From positions 1 to 40,643 of the IMG/VR virus record IMGVR_UViG_3300044632_000033: a DNA stretch of 40,643 nt. The stretch is one strand, 5' to 3'. The number at the start of each line of letters is the position of its first letter. Positions within the stretch are counted from its first letter, which is position 1. This stretch comes from a virus. This document shows positions 17,080 to 38,568 of this stretch, piece after piece. The notes beneath the pieces were generated by a model. That model searched no databases and was not told the origin of the DNA. It saw only the letters and a program-made list of their open reading frames with translations. A program made the position numbers and the translations under genes.

Positions 17080-17477
17080 TGTTACCTATAGCCGCATTAC
17101 TAAGTATAGGGGAAAAGGTTCTGGACAAGGTTCTGCCTGACCCAGAGGCACGGGCCAAAGCGCAGGCTATGCTTTTAGAGATGCAACAAAAGGGCGAACT
17201 TGCCAAACTCCAAGCCGACATGAATGAGCAGGATAACTTGACCAAACGGGCTGAAGCCGATATGAAGTCGGACTCATGGTTATCTAAGAACATCCGGCCT
17301 ATGACGCTAATCTTTATTTTGCTGACCTACACCGTATTTGGGATGATGTCCGCTTGGGAGATTGAGGTAAACAATAACTATGTAGAACTCTTGGGCCAGT
17401 GGGGGATGTTAATTATGTCGTTCTACTTTGGTGGGCGCACCCTTGAGAAGATCATGGATATGAAGGCCAAGAAATGA
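17079..17477 (+). CDS. Holin (GTA_holin_3TM-like)
   Basis: 132 residues with AAGGAG upstream. The N-terminal amphipathic region (IAALLSIGEKVLDKVLPDPE) and charged helix are followed by SKNIRPMTLIFILLTYTVFG and a second hydrophobic helix LLGQWGMLIMSFYFGGRTLE near the C-terminus. The 'RPxTL...FYFGGRxLEK' pattern is that of the 3TM holin family (PF11351, GTA_holin_3TM). The gene overlaps the endolysin start by four bases, the classic holin-endolysin order. It would open the inner membrane at lysis time. Confidence 0.85.
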   Translation: MLPIAALLSIGEKVLDKVLPDPEARAKAQAMLLEMQQKGELAKLQADMNEQDNLTKRAEADMKSDSWLSKNIRPMTLIFILLTYTVFGMMSAWEIEVNNNYVELLGQWGMLIMSFYFGGRTLEKIMDMKAKK

Positions 17478-17938
17478 ACTTGACCGCTAACTTTTCTCTT
17501 GCCGAGATGGTGAAGTCTGATACTGCACTGCGGCATGATATGGACAACACACCGGGGGAGGCTGAGATTGCTAATCTTAAAACACTCTGCGAAAAGGTAC
17601 TCCAGCCCGTCCGTGACCACTTTCAAACCGGAGTCAAGGTCAACTCAGGGTTCCGACATCCCGAAGTCAACGCAAAGGTGGGAGGCTCCAAAACGTCCGA
17701 CCATTGTAAAGGACAAGCCGCTGACATTGAGATTCCCGGTATTGCCAACGCGGACTTAGCCGTGTGGATTATGGACAACCTTGAGTACACCCAGTTAATC
17801 CTTGAGTTCTACACCCCCGGCGTGCCAGATTCGGGTTGGGTGCATGTTTCCTACGACCCCGCTAATTTAAAGAAGCAGAACTTGACTGCTACTAAGCGGG
17901 ACGGTAAAACGGTATATCTGCCGGGGCTTGTAGCCTAG
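17474..17938 (+). CDS. Endolysin, M15_3 peptidase (D-Ala-D-Ala carboxypeptidase-like)
   Basis: 154 residues. Zinc ligands of the M15_3 family (PF08291) are visible: H77 and D84 in SDHCKGQAADIEI, and H124 in GWVHVSYD. The preceding QPVRDHFQTGVKVNSGFRHP is the conserved N-terminal part. It should cleave peptide bonds in peptidoglycan cross-links. No signal peptide or separate wall-binding domain is present, so export depends on the overlapping upstream holin. Length is normal for a single-domain Gram-negative phage lysin. Confidence 0.9.
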   Translation: MNLTANFSLAEMVKSDTALRHDMDNTPGEAEIANLKTLCEKVLQPVRDHFQTGVKVNSGFRHPEVNAKVGGSKTSDHCKGQAADIEIPGIANADLAVWIMDNLEYTQLILEFYTPGVPDSGWVHVSYDPANLKKQNLTATKRDGKTVYLPGLVA

Positions 17939-25222: not shown

Positions 25223-28200
25223 ATGCGAATCGTAGAAGATCCAGCACTGGGCAGGCTTACCTATCCAGACGGCACTCCTGATGATGCTATCTATGCCGAC
25301 ATTGACCGGCGTTTGATGGGTCTCCTGACTCCTAAACCTAAAACTTCTGCGTTTGGGCAGTTAAAAGAATTTGGTAAACAGTTGCTCCCCGGTGCTGGGG
25401 GAATGCTAGAGCAGGCTGCTATTGGTGTTGGTGGTACAGCGGCAGACGTTTTACAACAGAAGTTTGGTGTTGGTCCCGGGGCTGAACCTGTTGTAAGTGG
25501 GCTTACCGGCCTTACTCAAAAATACGTAAAAGAACCACTGGCTGAATACTTTAAGCCAACCGAAGGTTACGAAGTTGCTCCTAAATTAGGTCAAGCAGTT
25601 GGCTCTGTACTAGGTCTTGCCGCTACGCGTGGTATTGGTCGCGGTGCTCCTCTGGCTACTGGTATGGGTGCGGGGGCTGGTGAACAAATTGAACGGGCAA
25701 TGGAGGCTGGCGCGGCTCCTGCTACTCGACTTGAGGCTGCTCTTTATGGTGGTGCAACCGGTATTACAGAAGCCATTCCTATTGAGTTAGCGTTTGGTCG
25801 AGCAATGAAATTAATGCCCGGTTCAATTATGAATCAGGGTTTACAGTTAATACGGAACGCCGCAATTACCGGTGGCGTAGAAGGTGCCCAAGAAGTAGCG
25901 CAAGGATTCTTGCAAAACCTTATTTCCAAAAACTTATATAAACCCGACCAACAACTTATTGAAGGTTTAGGGGAGCAAGGCGCTTACGGATTCGGTGCCG
26001 GTGCAATTCTTCAGTCTGCGCTTGATTTAACCATAGGCCGTCGGGCCATGAAAAAACGGGCTGCAGCGGAAAAACCCGAAGAAGCAGCAGAAGAAATCGC
26101 TACTGAGGCCGCTACCCCCGAGTTGACGGAAGAAGAAAAGATTGCTCGTAGACGACAAGAGATTCGTGCCAAGCAATTAGAGCAAGGCATCAATGTTATT
26201 TCTGAAGAAGATTTAGAGACTCTTGGAATCGCTAGGGGTAAGAAGGCTGACAATACATTTTCTAAACTGCTTAATAAAAACCTGTCCGATCCAGATCAGT
26301 TTGGGCAGGCTGAAAAAATACTTGGGGAATACCTATCTGGTAGCCGCCAAAAGTTTAATGACATCTCAACCATTGAGAAGGTACTTGATAAGCAGATTGC
26401 CGGGGAACCGTTAAACCTATTTGAAGAACTTGTTGTACGTAATTACAACGGCGAGGACGTAGACGCCTACTTGATGGGTAAACTACAAGAACTTCGTGCG
26501 CGTGTACCTGTACAACCCCCTGCAGCTCCAAGCACTGCACCCAAGACAATACAACAAATTGCTAAAGAACAGGCTGAGATTGCTAAGAAAGACATAGAAG
26601 CCCGTCAAGGATTGGCAAAACAACAAGCCAAAGAAGGCGAAGCCGCAGAAAAAGCGACCAAGGCAGGGGTAAAAGAACTTAAAGCGTTAGGCGTAACTCC
26701 AACCATACCGCCTAGCCCAGAGACAGGTGCTCAAGTCTTTGCTGAAGCGCAGCCCGATTTGTTCGGGGATATTACTACTCAAGGCCCAGAAGTTACCCGT
26801 GGCTCTAGCCAAGAAGCCGAATTTATCCGGCAAAGGGCTGAGTTTGAAGACGATCTTCGGCAGTTAAATGTAGCCGCTCAAGCCTCTGTGGCTGGGGTGC
26901 CCCAAGCCGATATTGCAGTTCAGGCTACAGCGGCAAAGGTTGCCGACAAACTTAATAAGATTCCGTTCTCTATCGGGGAACTAATTGATATACGTAACCA
27001 AGTCATTCGGCAGGGAACCCAAGTTCCCGGTTCTGAGGTTCTATTAGATGTAGTTAACCAAAAGATTGCCGAGCAAGCAGGTCAAATGCCTGAAGACGAG
27101 GAAGCCGCTCGTCAGATGCAGTTGTTCCCAGAAACACAGACTGAGTTGCCTTTTGCCGAAACCGCTCAAGGCGAGTTGTTTGAGCCTGCTGGTGTAGCAT
27201 CTTTACTGCCTGAAACGCCTGTTCAAGAAGGACTAACCCGAGAAGGTCTGCAATCTATTGGTATTGCAGCCAACAAGATTAAACAATACGAAGGCAAAAA
27301 CCTAACCGATGAAGGAGTTGCCGAAGGCGTTCGGATGGATTTAACCAACCGTGCCATGAACTTTCGTCGTGAGTTAGATAAAGCCCGTCGTGAGTATGCA
27401 GCCATCCTTGGACCTGAAGGTGTAATGCGGGGTAAAAAAGCGCAGGCTGCAGAATTAGAAAAAAGAATAGCAAATCTTGAACAAGCATATAACGCAGCAC
27501 AAGAAAACTTGCGGCTGTTTCCTGCATTGGAGCAGGGTCAACTTGCATTCGACGCACTTCAACCCGTTCAACCTGATATGTTCCCTACTCCTACGGAGCA
27601 GGAAGAAGAAAAGAGATTCAGAAAGATCAAGGCACAAGAGGCTGCTGGTGAGGCTGCACGGGAAGAAGGCGTAGCCACCGAATTAGAAACCCGTTTGCCT
27701 ATGGGTCGCACACTTGAAGATGTGCAAACTCTTATTGACCGGATCCGTCCGTTGCGTGGCAAGATTAACAATGACAAAGCAACACCCAATGAACAAGCAC
27801 AATATGACGAGGACTTGTCAACTTTATTCTCTATGGTCAAAGGTCCGGGTCGCATTCAGCCGCAATTTGAAGCAACTGACCCTGCTGCCCTTGCACTAAA
27901 CCGAGCCTTTGCCCGGGCTGAAGGGTTTTTAAAGAACCTAAGTAGAAAAGAACGTAGTCGTCTTGCTAGTAAATTAGTTGAGATGCGTGGTCGTACTGCG
28001 CAGCGAGAAGTTACAACTAAAGTTCTTAGCAAACAGGCTCGTCGTGAGGCAGAGCAGTTTCCTGAAGATAGCGCCCGAATTGAGGCACGGCAAGAGCGTG
28101 AACGCAAAGCACAAGAAGAAAAGTCTAAGGAGTCTAAGGAACAGGCGGCTAAAGCCGTTGAAGAAGATACTACGCTTAAGACTCGGGCGGCATTTACTGC

Positions 28201-31200
28201 CGTAATGAAAATCAATAGAGATATTGCATCTCAGGATGATATTCGTGAACTACGTCAAAACGTTCGTGACTATACCGATCTTAACGGCAATATAGATTTT
28301 GAAGGGCTTGCCAAACTATACGATATCAGTCCTAAGCAACTTAAAGAATTGTACACAGATGAATTAGTTCGCTTAAGTGGGCAAGATATTGAAAGTAAGA
28401 AAGAAAAAGAAGCCGCTGAACGGGAAGAAGCAGATCAAAAGGCTGCTGAAAAACGTCAAAAAGAAGAAATAGAACGGGTTAAAGAAGAAGAGAAAACTCG
28501 GGTACAGACGTTTGAAGACATCCGTAAAATGGAGCCACAACCGTTGGCTCAACTAATTCAAAGTGTAGCGGATATGAAGGGCGCAGATTTGCAACCTGTC
28601 ATGAAAAATATAGCCCGCACTAGCAAAGTTGCAGAGAACTTACAGCAGAAGATTGATGGGTCGTTTGGTGAAGGCGAAAAACTTAGTCGTAAACTTACTG
28701 CTAAAGAGTTTGAAGAAGCCGAAGGTAAACTGACCAAAAAGATTTCTCGTACTGTAAAAACTAATGATTGGGCACCGTTTGATACGGCGTATCAATACGC
28801 TATTTTGCGTAGTGGTGATAACAAGTTTGCCATTATTGCTCCCGCACGCTACAACATAGATGACTTATTTGGCAGTTTCCGGGTCAAATACCCTGACGCT
28901 AAAGCCTCGTTTGCAGGATCTGGCACTCTGGCTAACGTCAAGTACCTTACGTTTACTGCCGATGTTGAAGCTAAAGGACCAGCCCCTGACTTTGTAATTA
29001 CCCCACAAGCCGGTGCGCAACAGCGTAAAGCCGAAAAGATTGCTGGTACTAAGATTGCTAAAGTAACCGACATTCTTACCGGTTCGACTTACAACGATTT
29101 GAAGAATGGAGTAGCTGTCAAGAAGTCTGTTGATGAGTATGGTTTAGATGCCACCATGCGTGCCCTTGCTGACTTACGCGCCCAACGTGCGGCCCAACGA
29201 AAAGAAGTTGGCAAGTTTGCTATGGATGATCGGGTGCTAGATGAGGCACTTAACTACCTTGACAATACCTATGGCATACAAGTTTATTTTTCTGAACGAG
29301 CACAACGCTTAGAAGATAAGCCAAATGTAGGGTTTGCTAATGCATTTCTAAACAAAGCCCGTGCAGAAAGCACAACTCTAGATACAGACGAGTTACTAAA
29401 ACTAATTGCCAAATATGAAGGTAATTCAGATACAGGTAGGTTGGCAAGAGTCATTTCTACCCAAGCATCTAAATTTGAATTAGATAAAATACCTGTGTTT
29501 TATAATCCTTCAGAAGGAAGTGGTAGTTACTTCTACAATATATTCGACAGTAAAGGCAACCGCGAATCTAGCATCATAATTGGTAAAGATCATGTTTATT
29601 TACCCGATGTTGCTCTGCACGAAATTATTCACTCTTTGACCGTTGGGCAAATACGTAAAATCCAAGACCCCGAGTACAAACGCACAGGTGCTCGTTGGGA
29701 AGATTCTGCACAAGGTTTGATTGATTTGCACAGGTTTATGGAGTTTTACATTAACGACAAGATCTCAAGTAATCAGGGTGATGTAAAACTTTTAAAGAGT
29801 CTTAAGCAACAGTACGGCATGAAAGATTCTTTAGAGTTTGTAGCAGAAGCCCTATCTGATGAAGATTTTAAATCTGCGCTTAAAAAGATATCAACCAAAG
29901 AGTTTACAGATTGGATAAAGCAGTATAAACCCGGTAAGGCTGATGAGCGTCGTCTAAATATGTTTGAGAAGTTAGTTAAAGGTGCTCGCAACGTCTATGA
30001 GTTCTTTACTCGACTGGTTCGTCAGGCACTTAATCTACCCGATTCTTCACAGTCTGTCTTTGATCTTACTGTAAATCAGTTTAGCAAATTAATTCAGCAA
30101 AGCACGCCAACTTCTATAATGAAGGGTAGGCCAAACGAAACTAGTATTTCGGAGTTTACAACCCCAAAAAAGTACGGGCGGGACCCGCTACCCGCTGACA
30201 TCATAAAAATCTTAGATGACATCAAGAACAATCCTGCATTAAATGTTCCGGTCATCAAAAGCAAGGCGGATGCTACTCGTGCAGTAAAGACAGGCATGTT
30301 GCCTCTCCTAGCCATGAATCAAATTCGAGATATTTATGGTTCTGATCCTAGGTTAAAAGAACTAAATGATTACTACAAAGCCACCCAAAAAATGGGTGGG
30401 TATCGTAATGCCCTACGGGAAAAATACGCTGACGTTCTTAATGACTTCTATAAAGTCATTGACGCACATAAGAATCTAAAAGATAAAATCTACGAGGTTA
30501 TCAATGAGGGTTCTCGTCTTGAAGTAGATGTTCTAAAACCTAACTCAGACTACAAAGACCCTGCAATTAAAGCCGACCATAAGCGGTTACAGGATATTTA
30601 CAATGCGTTCCCACAAGACGTTAAAGATTTCTACGCTAAGTACCGCAAGAATAATGACTTTATCCTTGACCAAATAAAAGACTCAATGGTTGCACGGGCT
30701 ACAAGTTATGTAACAGACCCTGCCTCTAAGGCCGAAATCAAGGCCATGATTGATAAAAAGATTGATTCTTTTAAAGATAAAGGCCCCTACGCACCACTAA
30801 TGTTCTTTGGCAATAACTGGGTCAATGTCCAAACAGCAGAAGATCAAGTATTGCCGTATTCGTTTGAGACCAAGGCACAGGCTGATGAGTTTGCTAAACA
30901 GATGAAAGCCAAAGGTTACGGGGTCAAACAGTTTGAATCTATCCAAGAACTCAAAGCCAAAGGCGCCCCTCGTGCAGGATTCTTCAAACAATTAGAGCGA
31001 GTGCTGGATCGTAATAGGGTTAACCCTAAAGCCAAAGACGAGTTATATCAGATGACTCTGATGTACTTGCCTGAAGAGTCATTTATGCGGCAGTTCCAAA
31101 ACCGTAAAGGTGCGCCTACTTACGAGCGTGATGCACTTCGCAACTATGGTGAGTTAGCCGACAGGGTGGTGCATCAACTGCCCAAGGCACGCTATATGTC

Positions 31201-32857
31201 CGAAATGGACAACGCCATTGAAACTATGAAGGCTAAGATTAAACAGGATCCGGATGATGAATTGGGGCGGGTACTTGCTGAAGTAGAAAAGCATTTTGAC
31301 TCTGCTATAAACCCAACCATAAGCCCGTGGGCAACCCGTCTCGGTAATTTAGGATTTGCATGGTACATGGGTGCGAACCCATCAGCCGCTTTGGTGCAGT
31401 TGCTTCAGACTCCCGGCGTAACCCTACCTTATCTAGCACCCAAGTACGGCTTAAATCCGACTATGTCTGAACTTGTTAAGGCGGGTAGAGACTTCTTTGG
31501 CGGAGAAATATCCGGTGGTAAAGGATTCTTTAGTATTAAAACCAACAATAACTTGTCGGCTACTGAAAAGAAAGCCATACAAGAACTATATGACTTAAAC
31601 GTCATACCTCCTGCGGCTACAGAAGTTGGCGATATTGAGACCATGACGGGGTTAAAAAATGCTACGCCGCTAGAGAAAGTGGGTAAGAAGGTTAACTTTG
31701 CTTTAGGTTATATGTTCCAAAATGCAGAACGGTTTAACCGGGAAGTAACTGCGTTGGCTGCATTCCGCTTAGAGTACAATCGTTCCAAGAACTACGATAA
31801 GGCTGTCCAAGCCGCAAACGATGCGGTGGTAGAAACCCAAGGCGACTATTCGGACATGAATGCACCACGGGTGTTTAAACATCCTGCTGCCAAAGTGTTG
31901 CTTATGTTCAAGAAGTTCTTGCAAATGATGCTTTATCTGTACGGACGTAATTTGCAAATTGTTATGAATCGTAACAAGTTTACGCCTGAAGAACGTTCGC
32001 TGGCACAGAACCGATTGGCTGGTTTGCTTGGTACTTCAGCCGCCATGTCAGGGGTAATTGGTATGCCGTTCTACTGGATGGTCGAATCCATAATGAACGC
32101 TATCGGTGATGACGAAGATCCATACTATGACTTTACAACGAAGGTTAGGGAAACCCTCCCAGATTTCTTAGTCTCTGGTATCCCCGGATCTCTCACCGGA
32201 GCAAATATTGCATCTCGTACTGGCTTTAGAGATATGCCGCTACTAGGTTTCTTCCCCGGAATTGGGGCTGGTGCATCTAAGTCTGAGGATTCTGAAGGCG
32301 CAATTATGGATGCCCTAAAAGTAGCAACTGGCCCGGTAGGTGGTATGTTCTTAAACGTAGGGCGTGGAGTCGATCAAATTAATGACGGTAAACTTTACCG
32401 TGGGGTCGAGACCATGCTGCCCTCTGTTCTTAAAAACTTTGCAAAAGCATATCGATTTACGGAAGAGGGCGCACGCACCCTGCGTGGTGATCCGATTGTA
32501 GAAGATGTTTCGGGTTACGATGCTGCGCTTCAAGCCTTTGGATTTGCCCCATTAGAAGTAGCGACTAAGCAAGAAAAGGCTAACGTGGCTATGAAGTTCC
32601 AAACGGATGCCCAGCGTTCCAAGCAAAAGGTTTACGCATTAGCAAACTTGGCGATAGATGTTGGTGATACTGAAGGGTATGACAAGGCATTGGAACTTCT
32701 AGATAAGCACAATGATAAGTACCCCGGTTTTGAAATCAAACCTGCTCAACTTAAACAATCTATCAAAGCCTTCCAAAAGCGTTCTCAAGAAATGCTCGGT
32801 GGGGTGTATCTTGAGAAGGGTCTGCGCCCATATCTTTCAGATATTATTGGGCCGTAA
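25223..32857 (+). CDS. Giant polyvalent internal-virion protein with zincin motif
   Basis: 2544 residues, the largest gene. N-terminus (55-270) has Gly/Ala-rich segments and GVEGAQEVAQGFLQNLISKN (from about 218), typical of large polyvalent phage proteins. Residues about 940-1105 are highly charged coiled coil (EARQERERKAQEEKSKESKE). A zincin motif HEIIH lies at 1466-1470 with a candidate third ligand E1542 in FVAEALSDEDF. Further on come a helical domain (LPLLAMNQIRDIYGSDPRLK) and a C-terminal section with VLLMFKKFLQMMLYLYGRNL (about 2224-2243) and a hydrophobic helix near 2268-2293, recalling PLxRFG-type proteins. Probably ejected into the host; the protease role is inference. I see no polymerase or helicase motif. 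Confidence 0.75.
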   Translation: MRIVEDPALGRLTYPDGTPDDAIYADIDRRLMGLLTPKPKTSAFGQLKEFGKQLLPGAGGMLEQAAIGVGGTAADVLQQKFGVGPGAEPVVSGLTGLTQKYVKEPLAEYFKPTEGYEVAPKLGQAVGSVLGLAATRGIGRGAPLATGMGAGAGEQIERAMEAGAAPATRLEAALYGGATGITEAIPIELAFGRAMKLMPGSIMNQGLQLIRNAAITGGVEGAQEVAQGFLQNLISKNLYKPDQQLIEGLGEQGAYGFGAGAILQSALDLTIGRRAMKKRAAAEKPEEAAEEIATEAATPELTEEEKIARRRQEIRAKQLEQGINVISEEDLETLGIARGKKADNTFSKLLNKNLSDPDQFGQAEKILGEYLSGSRQKFNDISTIEKVLDKQIAGEPLNLFEELVVRNYNGEDVDAYLMGKLQELRARVPVQPPAAPSTAPKTIQQIAKEQAEIAKKDIEARQGLAKQQAKEGEAAEKATKAGVKELKALGVTPTIPPSPETGAQVFAEAQPDLFGDITTQGPEVTRGSSQEAEFIRQRAEFEDDLRQLNVAAQASVAGVPQADIAVQATAAKVADKLNKIPFSIGELIDIRNQVIRQGTQVPGSEVLLDVVNQKIAEQAGQMPEDEEAARQMQLFPETQTELPFAETAQGELFEPAGVASLLPETPVQEGLTREGLQSIGIAANKIKQYEGKNLTDEGVAEGVRMDLTNRAMNFRRELDKARREYAAILGPEGVMRGKKAQAAELEKRIANLEQAYNAAQENLRLFPALEQGQLAFDALQPVQPDMFPTPTEQEEEKRFRKIKAQEAAGEAAREEGVATELETRLPMGRTLEDVQTLIDRIRPLRGKINNDKATPNEQAQYDEDLSTLFSMVKGPGRIQPQFEATDPAALALNRAFARAEGFLKNLSRKERSRLASKLVEMRGRTAQREVTTKVLSKQARREAEQFPEDSARIEARQERERKAQEEKSKESKEQAAKAVEEDTTLKTRAAFTAVMKINRDIASQDDIRELRQNVRDYTDLNGNIDFEGLAKLYDISPKQLKELYTDELVRLSGQDIESKKEKEAAEREEADQKAAEKRQKEEIERVKEEEKTRVQTFEDIRKMEPQPLAQLIQSVADMKGADLQPVMKNIARTSKVAENLQQKIDGSFGEGEKLSRKLTAKEFEEAEGKLTKKISRTVKTNDWAPFDTAYQYAILRSGDNKFAIIAPARYNIDDLFGSFRVKYPDAKASFAGSGTLANVKYLTFTADVEAKGPAPDFVITPQAGAQQRKAEKIAGTKIAKVTDILTGSTYNDLKNGVAVKKSVDEYGLDATMRALADLRAQRAAQRKEVGKFAMDDRVLDEALNYLDNTYGIQVYFSERAQRLEDKPNVGFANAFLNKARAESTTLDTDELLKLIAKYEGNSDTGRLARVISTQASKFELDKIPVFYNPSEGSGSYFYNIFDSKGNRESSIIIGKDHVYLPDVALHEIIHSLTVGQIRKIQDPEYKRTGARWEDSAQGLIDLHRFMEFYINDKISSNQGDVKLLKSLKQQYGMKDSLEFVAEALSDEDFKSALKKISTKEFTDWIKQYKPGKADERRLNMFEKLVKGARNVYEFFTRLVRQALNLPDSSQSVFDLTVNQFSKLIQQSTPTSIMKGRPNETSISEFTTPKKYGRDPLPADIIKILDDIKNNPALNVPVIKSKADATRAVKTGMLPLLAMNQIRDIYGSDPRLKELNDYYKATQKMGGYRNALREKYADVLNDFYKVIDAHKNLKDKIYEVINEGSRLEVDVLKPNSDYKDPAIKADHKRLQDIYNAFPQDVKDFYAKYRKNNDFILDQIKDSMVARATSYVTDPASKAEIKAMIDKKIDSFKDKGPYAPLMFFGNNWVNVQTAEDQVLPYSFETKAQADEFAKQMKAKGYGVKQFESIQELKAKGAPRAGFFKQLERVLDRNRVNPKAKDELYQMTLMYLPEESFMRQFQNRKGAPTYERDALRNYGELADRVVHQLPKARYMSEMDNAIETMKAKIKQDPDDELGRVLAEVEKHFDSAINPTISPWATRLGNLGFAWYMGANPSAALVQLLQTPGVTLPYLAPKYGLNPTMSELVKAGRDFFGGEISGGKGFFSIKTNNNLSATEKKAIQELYDLNVIPPAATEVGDIETMTGLKNATPLEKVGKKVNFALGYMFQNAERFNREVTALAAFRLEYNRSKNYDKAVQAANDAVVETQGDYSDMNAPRVFKHPAAKVLLMFKKFLQMMLYLYGRNLQIVMNRNKFTPEERSLAQNRLAGLLGTSAAMSGVIGMPFYWMVESIMNAIGDDEDPYYDFTTKVRETLPDFLVSGIPGSLTGANIASRTGFRDMPLLGFFPGIGAGASKSEDSEGAIMDALKVATGPVGGMFLNVGRGVDQINDGKLYRGVETMLPSVLKNFAKAYRFTEEGARTLRGDPIVEDVSGYDAALQAFGFAPLEVATKQEKANVAMKFQTDAQRSKQKVYALANLAIDVGDTEGYDKALELLDKHNDKYPGFEIKPAQLKQSIKAFQKRSQEMLGGVYLEKGLRPYLSDIIGP

Positions 32858-33172: not shown

Positions 33173-33934
33173 TTACTTCAGATTACCCCCTGCTCTGAGA
33201 ATATCACCCGTATAAACGTAAGTTCCAACGTGCTCTAGTTTGATGAATGGGTTAGCGTAGATTTTGCCGCCGTTCTTGCGCCACAGTTCGCAGAAGTGAT
33301 AATCCTCAGACAGCAGCGCCCCGGTATGATCGATGCTTGTAGCAAAAAACTCATGAGTCAAGGGCTTGGCGTACTCGCCGGTCTCGGGATCTTTGAATGA
33401 TGAGGTGCGATAGGTTGGCACATGGGGCATCAGGTCAATAAATACCTGCCGCTTGATCAGCATAAATCCTGTACCACCATGACGGATTTCGATGCACCCA
33501 TCTTTATCCGTCTCAACCTTACCTAGTTCTGTAACCATATTAAATACGAATGCGCCGCCATAGTCCTTTAGGTCATCTTTACCTAACTTCGCCGCATCCC
33601 CTACCTTTTTCCAATCAATCTCTTTCTTGGGGTAGACACCACAGATGATGTCACGATCCGCCGCCATCAGAGTAGCCACAGCCTGAGCGTCAAAAGATAT
33701 GTCGGCATCGATGAACATAAGGTTGTCAAAACCTTTTTCAAGGAACAGACGCACTAACTCATTGCGGGCGCGGGTAATCAAACTCTCATTCATGATCTGC
33801 GCCCAGTACACAGGCACGCCTACCTGACGCATTTTATTTAGCGTACCCAACAGACCTGCTACATAGTGCCCCGTACACATCCCACCGTACATTGGGGTTG
33901 CAATCATCAGACTTGGTTTCTTTTCCTCTGTCAT
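33173..33934 (-). CDS. Phage glycosyltransferase (GT-A fold, GT2-like)
   Basis: 253 residues, AAAGGA upstream of the start. The N-terminus SLMIATPMYGGMCTGHYVAG and SLITRARNELVRLFLEKGFD lead to the metal-binding DAD (D76, D78) in NLMFIDADISFDAQAVATLM. Further conserved parts are DIICGVYPKKEIDWKK, IRHGGTGFMLIKRQVFIDLM and SEDYHFCELWRKNGGKIYAN. It should transfer a sugar from a nucleotide donor; acceptors could be phage DNA, virion proteins or host surface glycans. It is directly downstream of a methyltransferase, a pairing common in phage modification cassettes. Confidence 0.85.
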   Translation of the reverse strand: MTEEKKPSLMIATPMYGGMCTGHYVAGLLGTLNKMRQVGVPVYWAQIMNESLITRARNELVRLFLEKGFDNLMFIDADISFDAQAVATLMAADRDIICGVYPKKEIDWKKVGDAAKLGKDDLKDYGGAFVFNMVTELGKVETDKDGCIEIRHGGTGFMLIKRQVFIDLMPHVPTYRTSSFKDPETGEYAKPLTHEFFATSIDHTGALLSEDYHFCELWRKNGGKIYANPFIKLEHVGTYVYTGDILRAGGNLK

Positions 33935-33936
33935 TT

Positions 33937-34545
33937 TTAATCCTTTAGTTTTTGGACAGCCAGTTGATATCCTACGTGAACAACTCGTAGTTTGTCGTGA
34001 TAAGTATTGGTAAACATATCAATCGCAATTTTGGGCTTGTGTAAAATAGGATAGTCAATACCCCACATATAATCATCAAACACAATTACGCCGCCTACTT
34101 TTAGTATCTGCCACGCCATGCACGCATCCGTCAGTACATCAGGTGCTTGGTGAGAGCCATCAATATAAATTAAGTCCATCAGTTCCAGCGGTGAAGGCAT
34201 ATTCCATATTAGATGTGCCAATCCCTTGGTAGATGTTTGCTTATAAACGTTAACTTTCTTAGTTAAGTCTAAGGTTTGTACCTTGCGGATGTTTTCGTGG
34301 AAGCGTTGTTCTACATCCCACATAGTTTTAGAGTCGTGTTCTTCTCCACCCTGCCAAGTATCTATACAAGTAATTATGCCGCCAGAGTCTAATCCATTCT
34401 CAATAAGCCATACTGTACTGCGCCCTTCATAACAACCAATTTCTAAAAAACGACGTTTAGCGGAAATGATGCCAAATACAGCACGGAACAAAGGTGGCCC
34501 CCATTTAAACCAATCTTGCGTAAATTCGTATTCTTTAGGAATCAT
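33937..34545 (-). CDS. Class I SAM-dependent methyltransferase (Methyltransf_24-like)
   Basis: 202 residues. Motif I is FLEIGCYEGRSTVWLIENG (about 33-51), with D62 in ITCIDTWQGG; the post-core motifs are DLIYIDGSHQAPDVLTDACM and VGGVIVFDDYMWGIDYPILH. This layout matches the CmcI/Methyltransf_24 group that methylates sugars or small molecules rather than DNA bases. ATGA overlap with the upstream winged-helix gene and two-base spacing to the glycosyltransferase suggest they work together, perhaps O-methylating a transferred sugar. That link is inference. Confidence 0.85.
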   Translation of the reverse strand: MIPKEYEFTQDWFKWGPPLFRAVFGIISAKRRFLEIGCYEGRSTVWLIENGLDSGGIITCIDTWQGGEEHDSKTMWDVEQRFHENIRKVQTLDLTKKVNVYKQTSTKGLAHLIWNMPSPLELMDLIYIDGSHQAPDVLTDACMAWQILKVGGVIVFDDYMWGIDYPILHKPKIAIDMFTNTYHDKLRVVHVGYQLAVQKLKD

Positions 34546-34745
34546 TCTTTCACCCTATAAAATTTCTTAGATCCTATACGCACTAAGTCCGCAATGTCGT
34601 TCTCAACAAATCGATTCATTGCACGGGCTACTTTGTTGTCACTAATAATCCATAACTTAGCCAAAGTCTTTGCCTGCACCGGAGTCTTGTGGGTGCGTAA
34701 GTAATCCCAAACTTTTTCTTCAAACTCGGTCATTTCAACTGCCAC
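34542..34745 (-). CDS. Small winged-helix protein (GTG start)
   Basis: I place the start at GTG 34745, because AAAGGAG lies 7 bases upstream on the bottom strand; the longer frame from 34796 would overlap the previous gene. The product is 67 residues: AVEMTEFEEKVWDYLRTHKT, KTLAKLWIISDNKVARAMNR, FVENDIADLVRIGSKKFYRV. The helix-turn-helix plus wing pattern resembles small MarR or Lrp-type DNA-binding folds. It may regulate the leftward operon; no operator is identified. Confidence 0.65.
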   Translation of the reverse strand: MAVEMTEFEEKVWDYLRTHKTPVQAKTLAKLWIISDNKVARAMNRFVENDIADLVRIGSKKFYRVKE

Positions 34746-34758
34746 TATTCTTCTCCTT

Positions 34759-35094
34759 TTATAATCGAGTACCATTACCTTTGTTCCGATTAGCACAAGG
34801 CCACACTTGCTTCAATGCATCGGTAACTAATAAGTCTGCAGTCTTATGGCGTATGCCGGGATTGGCTTCGATATAACTTCTAACCACATCCCTGACCTGA
34901 CCATTGGTTACGCCCGACGGGGGGCAACTGAAAACGTGTTGTTGGGCATCGCTCACCCCTGCCACGTACCCAAGAGCAAACATCCTATGAATTACTTCCT
35001 CACTATTCATTCTTGATAACAAATCGTTACCCGAAAGAAACTCAGCACTTGCCATGCACGGGACAAACAATAAACCTGCAATTAGTTTTTTCAT
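34759..35094 (-). CDS. Secreted Rap1a/Tai-like protein
   Basis: 111 residues. A clear signal peptide (MKKLIAGLLFVPCMASA, cleavage before EF) is followed by FLSGNDLLSRMNSEE, ALGYVAGVSDAQQHVFSCPP, SGVTNGQVRDVVRSYIEANP and TADLLVTDALKQVWPC. This is the Rap1a/Tai domain pattern (PF18602), best known from periplasmic type VI secretion immunity proteins of Serratia. C57 and C100 probably form a disulphide. A phage could use it to alter periplasmic or competitor interactions. ATGA overlap with the upstream gene. Confidence 0.75.
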   Translation of the reverse strand: MKKLIAGLLFVPCMASAEFLSGNDLLSRMNSEEVIHRMFALGYVAGVSDAQQHVFSCPPSGVTNGQVRDVVRSYIEANPGIRHKTADLLVTDALKQVWPCANRNKGNGTRL

Positions 35095-35486
35095 GTATTT
35101 TCGTCTTCCATTTTTTCAAGATCTTCTTGATAGGTTTTAGTTAGATCAAGCACGTTTTCTTGTTTTCGCATCCATTGATAGTTGTATCTAAAGTTACGAC
35201 GCCCTATTGGTTCAAACTGCTTAATCTTTCTATTCATATCAAACATTAAATCAAGTAATTTTTTGCGGAAATGTCCGGGGTCTATGTCCAAAAGATTAAG
35301 GTACGTATCTGAAGTGCGGAACAAAAAGTCAATGCCTGAAATGGCTTCATCCGTAGGTATTAATTTTTTATTTGTATAAACTGCGCGAGGTTTCATTTGA
35401 GCATCTTGGATTGCTAAACCTACAACTGCCGCTAATATCCTACGATACGCAGTTCCTTGTGCTTTATAATCCAACTCATATATCAT
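35091..35486 (-). CDS. Conserved phage protein of unknown function
   Basis: 131 residues, ATGA overlaps on both sides. Distinct segments: AYRRILAAVVGLAIQDAQMK, IDFLFRTSDTYLNLLDIDPG, HFRKKLLDLMFDMNRKIKQF, RRNFRYNYQWMRKQ. The 'FLFxxSDTYLxLLDIDPxxFRxxLL' pattern recurs among phage early proteins. The ILAAVVGLAI stretch is short for a membrane helix. No functional motif. Confidence 0.65.
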   Translation of the reverse strand: MIYELDYKAQGTAYRRILAAVVGLAIQDAQMKPRAVYTNKKLIPTDEAISGIDFLFRTSDTYLNLLDIDPGHFRKKLLDLMFDMNRKIKQFEPIGRRNFRYNYQWMRKQENVLDLTKTYQEDLEKMEDENT

Positions 35487-35755
35487 TTTTTATCTTCCCC
35501 CTCAATTTCTTTTACCAAACGATTTAAATACCATTGGGCTTTTTTAAGGTCTTGTACCGGATTGTCTTTATGACCAGTACGGCTAAGGTATTTAATAGCA
35601 GTCAGCCGTAAGTGCCCTCTAAATTCTTCAGGGGTAGACTTGGCTTTCATGTAGTCAATGGTTTCGATTCCACCCACCATATAGTGTGGCGGATGGTTGA
35701 CTACGTCTTTCGGGGTATCAGATTTAGGTTCTTTTTCAGGCGCGGCTTTCCACAT
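35483..35755 (-). CDS. DUF3310 family protein
   Basis: 90 residues with AAAGGAG upstream. NHPPHYMVGGIETIDYMKAK, HLRLTAIKYLSRTGHKDNPV and QDLKKAQWYLNRLV are the diagnostic DUF3310 (PF11753) blocks. The family is very common in early regions of phages and is sometimes annotated as nucleotide kinase without strong proof. Its position next to the primase-helicase is consistent with nucleotide metabolism or replication. Confidence 0.85.
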   Translation of the reverse strand: MWKAAPEKEPKSDTPKDVVNHPPHYMVGGIETIDYMKAKSTPEEFRGHLRLTAIKYLSRTGHKDNPVQDLKKAQWYLNRLVKEIEGEDKK

Positions 35756-35766
35756 GGCGTTCTCCT

Positions 35767-38568
35767 TTAATTTTGATCTTCTTGTGGTGGGGGTGCAGTA
35801 TCTAAAACATCAATAAAATGCCCACGGCTTGCGTCTAATACAATACAGTACGAGGGCGGGGTTGGTATCTCCGTACCTTTTCCAAGTCGTTTCTTTTCTG
35901 CCTTGACATAGATTCCTTTGGCTTTTAGATCAGAGATTAAGTCTTTGTAATACAGTTGCCGTTGAGCACACCAATTACGCAGGTCTTCTACGGGTATATA
36001 GGTATGGTTAGTATCCGGTTCATGGCGAATCTTTAACTCTTTTTGTGGTTCGCGTATGGGGGGTTTAGCCATGCCTAATCGCTTGTCAATACCGTCTTCA
36101 ATAATAAGAATGTTATTAATGTGTCCCCGTATAAAGTCGGCAAGAATCATGTCGTGGTCTAGTTTTAGACTCTCAACATCAGCACGGGAATACATAACCA
36201 TGTCAGCAGCCCACTCGTAGATACGCTTCAAGTTGTAGTCGTGTAACCCTAACTGTTGGGCTATGTGCCCACCCGTAAGAATGCTTGCTACCCCCGATGA
36301 CCAATACCGTTCTTTCGTTGTGGCAGCAATCTCTTTATCAAACTGAATCTGAGTTTTTTGCATAAAGTCTAAGACTGACGACAGGTTAGGTAATAAGTGC
36401 CGTATATAAATTTCCCCCGCCATGCCATAGTTATCAAACATCAAAGAAAACAACTCGTCAGCCTGCCCCTTGTCCATCTTGTGATTGCCAAACACTTTAA
36501 TTTCAAACACCCGCATCAATTCGCCTTCGGGTAACTGCTTGATCTGTTGCATTTTTTCGTAGAAAGACGCGTTGCTACTAGACAGCATGATGGTTGCCCA
36601 TTCAGCAGAATTAAGACGCTCGGCATTAACCTGCGACTGCATCCGATTACGTGGGCGCCCAAGAGTAATAGCGTAGGCTAAATCGGAAAAGTCTTCGGGC
36701 TTCATATTAGTAATCTCGTCAATGGTCACGGGTAGGTGTGCCATGACTCCAAAGCGGTGTAGGCGAGACAGTTTGGTATCTTCTGCGTGAAGCATCAGTT
36801 TGTCGGGGTGTCCATACACACTGTTACACATACGAAGAATGGTTGATTTGCCTGTTCCGGACTCCTTGGACACATAATTAACAAGCAATCCTTTGTGGTT
36901 GGTAAACTTAAATAGTGGCGCACCAAAAGCACATAAAGCGCCGAAAGCGTTGGCTTCCATACCTTCTTCAGCATAGATATTAAATACTTTCTTCCACTGC
37001 TCAAGATCACCCCGTTTGCGTAGCAGGGGTGCAGTATTACGGGTTACAACAGACGGGGGACAAAACATCATAGAACCTGTGATGTCTATTTCTCGCTCAC
37101 CCAATATAAATTTATCGTCATCATCGCTCCACCCAAATCTGACACTAGCGGTTTCTGACGGTTGAGTCATTTGCATCTCCTTAGTTGATCGGGCTATATA
37201 AGCCATAATTGCATCCATTGGCTTGCCAGACAGAGCCACTACGCCTTGTTTTGCCAACGCGTTGCGACAAGCATCTTTAGATAGCGCCTCAGTCAGGGAC
37301 AATGTAAACTCTCGTACCCCGTCTTTTGGTAGATGTAGCCGCATACTTAGTGACTCGCCCTCTTCTCCATCCATGACTCGTTTAACTAAATACAAATCGT
37401 TCTCATATACCATTGAAGGTTCTTCTTCATCACCGAAAGCCTCTCGGTAGATACCCCCGTTCTTGCCTCGGAAGTATGGGAATGGAAGCGACGGAATTTT
37501 GAATGTTATTTCTTCTTGGAAAATTTCACTTTTCTGAACAACTTCGTTATCCCCTTCAGTTGCCCGTGCAATCTCAGCGCCAATTTGTATAGGGGAAGTT
37601 ATGTTACCCCTGTGGATACACCCCTCACACCCACCACTCCTCAACTTGTCAAAGGTTGCGCAGGTATATGGCCCCTTGATGTGTATTACTTTTTGTTCCG
37701 TTGATTCCGGTGTGTACTGTGGATGATCTTTAGATACTTCATGGATAGCGGTTTCTTCGTCGTCACAAAATGTAGCAATAGATAGAATGGCACGCCACAT
37801 AGGTTCTTCTAGCGTTGCTTGATTCTCAATGCAATACTTTATCTGCAAGCACCCTTTATCATCGTCAATCTTTTTCTTGATCGTAGAAAACTTGTTGATG
37901 TAGTTACCCATCAATGCTTTGGTTACAGCATCCATAGGGCGACGTACTTTGGGTGCGAGAGGTATAACTTCTCCTACCCTAGCAATCAGGTCTTCTAGTC
38001 GGCGTGGTTTGCCTTCAAGAATAATATCGACGGGGCGTGGTTCTTCGGTCTTGTGATTAAACGTACCGGGGATTCGTAGAATCCTAGCGGCATCAGCCGT
38101 AACCGCAGGGTCGGCTTTTAGGTCATGCTGTACACACTTGGCTTTTAACGACTCCGCTACACGACTCCATTTGTCGATAGGCACGGCTTCATCTAAAGGC
38201 CAGTACACATGAACCCCGCCACCGGAGTTAACAATAGTTGGTTTTGGCATACCCAACTCTTTGCAGAACCTACCAAGATCTGCAATTGCGTCTTCTCTAG
38301 TTTCGTAGGGCTTCCCCTCGCCACAATCTAAATCTAACCACAAGGCTTTTACTTGAGTAGCATTTGCGCGAGTGCGTTCCTTGGGAGTAGCAAACTTTGC
38401 CAACCCAAAGAAGATATCCCGATTTTTCGATGCTAAGTCTGCGACTGTCGCTTCTACTTCATCAAGTGTCTCGACAAATATCTGCTCACGCAGTTTGCCT
38501 TTGGTCATGCCAACGATAGCGTAATAGCCACCCTCGGCAGTAACAGCCTGTAAGAATTGTCGGTTCAT
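35767..38568 (-). CDS. Primase-helicase: AEP primase N-terminus fused to SF3/DUF927-like ATPase
   Basis: 933 residues. Archaeo-eukaryotic primase motifs are visible: D79-x-D81 in ALWLDLDCG, H120 in NSGGGVHVYWPL, and D159 in DPAVTADAARILRIPGTFNH. A Cys cluster (C303, C314, C317) in YTCATFDKLRSGGCEGCIHR suggests a zinc site. The C-terminal ATPase has Walker A SGTGKST (570-576) and Walker B VTIDEIT (614-620), followed by MQSQVNAERLNSAEWATIML. It should prime and unwind phage DNA. It is the core replication gene in this window; no DNA polymerase is present here. Confidence 0.85.
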   Translation of the reverse strand: MNRQFLQAVTAEGGYYAIVGMTKGKLREQIFVETLDEVEATVADLASKNRDIFFGLAKFATPKERTRANATQVKALWLDLDCGEGKPYETREDAIADLGRFCKELGMPKPTIVNSGGGVHVYWPLDEAVPIDKWSRVAESLKAKCVQHDLKADPAVTADAARILRIPGTFNHKTEEPRPVDIILEGKPRRLEDLIARVGEVIPLAPKVRRPMDAVTKALMGNYINKFSTIKKKIDDDKGCLQIKYCIENQATLEEPMWRAILSIATFCDDEETAIHEVSKDHPQYTPESTEQKVIHIKGPYTCATFDKLRSGGCEGCIHRGNITSPIQIGAEIARATEGDNEVVQKSEIFQEEITFKIPSLPFPYFRGKNGGIYREAFGDEEEPSMVYENDLYLVKRVMDGEEGESLSMRLHLPKDGVREFTLSLTEALSKDACRNALAKQGVVALSGKPMDAIMAYIARSTKEMQMTQPSETASVRFGWSDDDDKFILGEREIDITGSMMFCPPSVVTRNTAPLLRKRGDLEQWKKVFNIYAEEGMEANAFGALCAFGAPLFKFTNHKGLLVNYVSKESGTGKSTILRMCNSVYGHPDKLMLHAEDTKLSRLHRFGVMAHLPVTIDEITNMKPEDFSDLAYAITLGRPRNRMQSQVNAERLNSAEWATIMLSSSNASFYEKMQQIKQLPEGELMRVFEIKVFGNHKMDKGQADELFSLMFDNYGMAGEIYIRHLLPNLSSVLDFMQKTQIQFDKEIAATTKERYWSSGVASILTGGHIAQQLGLHDYNLKRIYEWAADMVMYSRADVESLKLDHDMILADFIRGHINNILIIEDGIDKRLGMAKPPIREPQKELKIRHEPDTNHTYIPVEDLRNWCAQRQLYYKDLISDLKAKGIYVKAEKKRLGKGTEIPTPPSYCIVLDASRGHFIDVLDTAPPPQEDQN

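Follow-up and report, generated by a model that had tools for sequence, protein, structure and literature searches.

What does a phage do with a probably exported protein whose nearest structural relatives are bacterial inhibitors of T6SS amidases? The gene that raises this question lies in a viral stretch of 40,643 nucleotides (IMG/VR record IMGVR_UViG_3300044632_000033; hereafter the window). It is an intact open reading frame of 111 codons from ATG on the minus strand (34759-35094); the plus strand of the same interval has stops throughout. A preliminary description had reported this frame and a conserved pattern in its product (GYVAGVSDA...CPPSGVTNGQVRDVVRSYIEANPGIRH...ALKQVWPC). Both exist, but the minus strand had gone unstated. 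The frame was also right to be called a real Rap1a/Tai-domain gene: its 111-residue product has the Rap1a fold (see below) and matches Pfam PF18602 (Rap1a) over the full profile (positions 1-90 of 90; E 6.8e-19; 68.6 bits against a cut-off of 27.7). It also matches PHROG 3870, a family labelled function unknown, at 6e-21. We conclude that the gene is functional and coding because its dN/dS against close homologues is 0.04-0.14, indicating strong purifying selection. A search against a defence-system library returned nothing for it.

As in the preliminary description, the gene belongs to an early operon; this is the replication operon, encoded on the opposite strand to the structural genes. Structural and lysis genes of the window occupy the plus strand and replication genes the minus strand. 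The operon is identified as the replication region by an upstream primase/helicase-like protein (35767-38568, minus strand; phrog_8841 E 7.2e-29, DUF927), and it also encodes, on the same strand, a DUF3310 protein (35483-35755; PF11753 E 1.3e-20) and a methyltransferase (33937-34545; PF13578 E 6.4e-21). The immediate upstream neighbour is a 131-residue protein (35091-35486, minus strand) that has no family match and ranks among the genes most often found nearby in other carriers; its stop overlaps the start of the Rap1a gene in the tetranucleotide ATGA (35091-35094). On the 3' side of the Rap1a-gene stop is AAGGAGAAG, which resembles a ribosome-binding site, followed by the GTG of a small protein with a weak match to HTH-like transcriptional regulators (34542-34745, minus strand; phrog_2440 E 2.9e-4). 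The methyltransferase forms a pair with a glycosyltransferase-like gene (33173-34545), and several phages that are otherwise unlike each other (clusters 12 and 23) have this pair close to their Rap1a gene. Host prediction yielded no tRNA in the window and no further host evidence.

The product is probably exported to the periplasm, judging from its N-terminus. Codons 1-17 (MKKLIAGLLFVPCMASA; 35044-35094, minus strand) read by eye as a signal peptide of type I: there is an A-x-A site but no lipobox, and cleavage is expected before Glu18-Phe19. A hydrophobic leader precedes the conserved E-F in every homologue read. The signal peptide noted in the preliminary description is thus retained, with export itself a prediction. 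A first homologue search had suggested that the leader is unusually conserved. We dropped this idea when a second, leader-free search gave varied leaders; the apparent conservation was largely a consequence of the search seeds.

The mature chain (residues 18-111; 34762-35043, minus strand) is predicted to adopt the Rap1a fold. An AlphaFold2 model built from an alignment of 46 diverse sequences reached a pLDDT of 90.3, superseding a weak first model (pLDDT 74), with the last ~7 residues disordered. Comparison of this predicted model by Foldseek gave a TM of 0.80 and an rmsd of 1.3 Å to Serratia Rap1a (3zfi), so that the structural match anticipated from the sequence pattern was found. All of the first seven PDB matches are inhibitors, Serratia Rap1a or Agrobacterium Tai4 (TM 0.74-0.80). 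The best matches in the viral library are a pair of Rap1a-domain proteins from uncultured Caudovirales; the N4-like coliphages Bp4 and SP5M are listed too.

The disulphide cysteines and two dimer residues of Rap1a are retained. Rap1a has a structural disulphide, Cys78-Cys122, and dimerizes through residues that include Tyr64 and Asp70 (PMC3852654). Alignment places Cys57 (34924-34926, minus strand) at Cys78 and Cys100 (34795-34797, minus strand) at Cys122. Both are invariant in our sequence set A3, and the pair joins the alpha2-alpha3 region to the C-terminus. The dimer residues correspond to Tyr43, which is Phe in some members, and to an invariant Asp49.

One answer that such a fold suggests is that the protein is an orphan T6SS immunity protein that neutralizes the Tae4/Ssp1-type amidases injected by neighbours and lets infected cells survive until burst. 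Besides the predicted fold shared with Rap1a and A. tumefaciens Tai4, there is precedent: effector-less Rap1a-type genes occur in Cronobacter, and extra immunity genes have been proposed to protect from foreign effectors (PMC3852654). Moreover, in a Cronobacter phage, ENT47670, a PF18602 gene runs opposite to the structural genes, and T6SS Rap1a genes are known from the phage's host species (PMC3852654). However, the surface with which Rap1a works is mostly gone. Rap1a blocks Ssp1 through twelve residues, with Gln84 bonding the catalytic His (PMC3852654). In the window protein one of the twelve is identical (Ser81, here Ser60), two are similar (Lys58 and Glu90, here Arg37 and Asp69), and the others are replaced, among them Gln84 by Thr63, Arg62 by Leu41, Tyr50 by Met29 and Arg119 by Val97. 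The strongly constrained sequence does not suggest an arms race either, and in the selection comparison with close homologues the effector-facing loop gave no sign of rapid diversification.

Gene context also argues against this answer. Tae4 (PF14113) was found in none of 20 carrier phage records, three of which are complete genomes, and no Tae4 amidase is among the neighbours of the Rap1a gene in the window. The domain is seldom beside Tae4 in bacteria as well. Among 274 bacterial genomes of one class, PF18602 scores above cut-off in 48 (at 66 places) and Tae4 occurs in 10; the two adjoin at only 4 of the 66 places (G022, G043, G150 and G223). A further twenty cellular PF18602 genes lie next to ordinary genes, for transporters, proteases and enzymes among others, judged from the 25 commonest neighbour families, a listing that could conceal a rare T6SS neighbour.

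Sequence points the same way, and phylogeny probably does too. A Gly-x-x-Trp-Cys signature is common to the two immunity proteins of solved structure and the four genes linked to Tae4, and this Trp-Cys is absent from all 41 phage members of A3. In a tree of 87 columns only, these six T6SS-linked members form a clade of their own (100/89) and the phage proteins fall outside it. An AU test that forced the window's group into the Tae4-linked clade was not rejected (p 0.225), and the split between phage and Tae4-linked proteins is therefore likely but not proven. Taken together, the contact residues, the absence of Tae4, the gene context and the probable tree position do not justify filing the phage protein as a T6SS immunity protein, and protection from T6SS amidases, as the preliminary description had put it, is unsupported in that form. 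We consider this reading unlikely, although the protein may still work in a manner like T6SS immunity.

The bacterial survey bears on a second explanation. Most cellular PF18602 members, with their ordinary neighbours, may have a role other than inhibition, possibly one that the phage has borrowed. The phage product could then be a periplasmic chaperone or stress protein resembling the HdeA/Rap1a type, or else a PF18602 housekeeping protein borrowed from the host, and preserve the envelope during infection. In keeping with this, cellular PF18602 genes mostly lack an adjoining Tae4 and lie among varied ordinary genes, and HdeA is the first PDB match after the Rap1a and Tai4 structures (probability 0.66). 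The likeness to HdeA is weak, however (E 0.7, TM 0.46), and in the tree nearly all phage PF18602 proteins belong to phage-only lineages and are not recent host copies. We regard a chaperone or housekeeping role as possible but doubtful. In the same tree, a PF18602 protein carried by four Pseudomonas genomes (L056-L059) falls among the phage proteins, with a long branch; exchange or domestication is possible.

A third explanation looks inside the phage. The protein could time lysis by binding the phage's own M15 endolysin (17474-17938) or a host wall enzyme and delaying lysis, and inhibition of a host or competing endolysin amidase had been suggested for this gene. The window has a holin-M15 cassette, and a clear M15 lysin is present in 10 of the 24 carrier records searched. 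Yet the association, apparent among relatives of the window, looks like a lineage effect: other carriers have different lysins (a GH24 lysozyme in G007, an N-acetylmuramidase in Bp4), and four large carrier records have no detectable M15 (G296, G298, G299 and G305). A close relative that lost the Rap1a gene retains its M15 (G304, the same as L182), and at the loci read the Rap1a gene is never in or beside the lysis cassette. Because other carriers lack M15, inhibition of the phage's own lysin is unlikely, and we think a part in lysis timing altogether improbable.

How the gene is distributed says more about the kind of function it has. One search recovered homologues from 50 IMG/VR stretches and another from 141, and the gene is patchy and present on several phage backbones. 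Among carriers of the window's family it mostly points the same way as the replication genes and small accessory genes around it, whose order varies between phages. Few phages of the window's own backbone have it: 2 of 80 loci by homology scan and 2 of 20 by whole-record search, one of these being additional to the scan. Two relatives have lost it cleanly. L181 and L182 share ~89% identity with the window on the upstream side of the gene and 83-84% on the downstream side, and blastn and the junction sequence show that the segment 34757-35077, and with it the Rap1a gene alone, is absent from both. What is left, at L181 5682-5830 and L182 6347-6495, is a relic in which the start codon and first six codons are fused to the downstream gene's ribosome-binding site. 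The rarity on its own backbone, the precise loss and the shifting neighbours lead us to conclude that the gene is dispensable and exchangeable. Rarity and deletion are as expected of an optional gene for interaction with hosts or competitors.

Relatives reach well beyond this backbone. Phage DSL-LC04 has a 55% identical gene that is already labelled 'type VI amidase / Tai4'. More remote relatives occur in Microcystis phages and in the Cronobacter phage, where the PF18602 gene (L053 6004-6282), opposite to the surrounding structural genes, is unannotated. A much more divergent relative is present in 56 records, mostly N4-like Escherichia phages, a few of them labelled Rap1a or Tai4. Bas96_0068 and Bp4 orf70 are two such homologues. 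These N4-like coliphage versions lie in the early/middle region, near RNA polymerase/decoration genes and an ATPase, and away from holin and endolysin.

We favour, with a probability of only about 0.3, the tentative reading that the product is an early periplasmic inhibitor of Rap1a fold acting on a wall-cutting enzyme, most likely the entry enzyme of a superinfecting phage. This would amount to superinfection exclusion, one of the functions that the preliminary description had proposed. A small Rap1a-fold protein would be made in the early/middle phase of infection and exported to the periplasm, where the Cys57-Cys100 disulphide would form and the protein dimerize. In this compartment of the infected cell the dimer would then sterically block an enzyme that cleaves peptidoglycan. 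We place the entry enzyme of a superinfecting phage first among possible targets by analogy with T4 Spackle, a helical, disulphide-bonded periplasmic protein made early, which inhibits gp5, the entry (tail) lysozyme of superinfecting phages (PMC7677548). This precedent shows that such a role is workable, and it fits an optional early gene of phages without a T6SS link. The entry enzyme is a more likely target than a T6SS amidase, and the T6SS amidases of neighbours are our second choice among targets of an inhibitor. No recognized wall hydrolase was detected in the giant virion protein or in the other tail proteins of the window that were tested. That giant protein (2544 residues; 25223-32857) matches a DarB-like antirestriction family in its C-terminal part (phrog_10089, E 1.5e-83). 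Its N-terminal part matches virion RNA polymerase weakly, and it contains ALHEIIHSL, a motif of HExxH type. It is conceivable, though doubtful, that the same holds widely, and that many phages, from metagenomic ones on several backbones to N4-like coliphages, use an optional exported Rap1a-fold inhibitor to shield the wall from the entry enzymes of competing phages.

Rap1a-domain proteins of phages already go by that name in GenBank and in tables derived from UniProt, and among the papers in the library searched none reports what a phage Rap1a/Tai4 protein does. What is new here is a clean example of gene loss, together with the finding that the 'immunity' label is not carried by the contact residues or the gene context, and probably not by the tree position. 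Rap1a and Tai4 labels on phage genes have spread from the Pfam name, yet most sampled PF18602 genes have no adjoining T6SS amidase. Should the phage proteins turn out to inhibit wall enzymes, they would form a new and widespread class of envelope protection encoded by phages; if they do not, the automatic label 'immunity protein' needs correcting.

How does the window protein compare with known systems? It resembles Serratia marcescens Rap1a (SMA2260; PDB 3zfi/4bi8), a Tai4a-type immunity protein to Ssp1, in fold, putative signal peptide, cysteine pair and two dimer residues. It differs in sequence (~26% identity), in the replacement of most effector contacts, in having no adjoining effector gene and in its place in a phage replication operon. 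With A. tumefaciens Tai4 (PDB 6ije/6ijf) it shares the fold (TM 0.74-0.77) and a cysteine before the third helix, but Tai4 belongs to the Tae4-linked Trp-Cys clade and the phage proteins do not have Trp-Cys. Phage proteins annotated Rap1a/Tai4 include DSL-LC04 WJZ48091, Shigella phage Moonfish gp50 and proteins of Escherichia phages UE-M3/M6 and PBM-3 (PHROG 3870 and 11132). WJZ48091 is a direct homologue, whereas the Moonfish, Bp4 and UE-M3 proteins are remote members of the same fold, likewise from the early/middle region; the N4-like versions are very divergent and on another backbone, and Bp4 orf70 is beyond the reach of the Pfam model. T4 Spackle differs in having a known target, and as it is absent from the best 50 Foldseek matches listed we treat it as an analogue only. 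The comparison is one of how a protein might work: like Spackle, which inhibits a wall enzyme, the window protein would be a small, exported, helical disulphide protein encoded by an early gene. If our reading is right, a fold that bacteria turn on T6SS amidases would do the job of T4 Spackle in phages.
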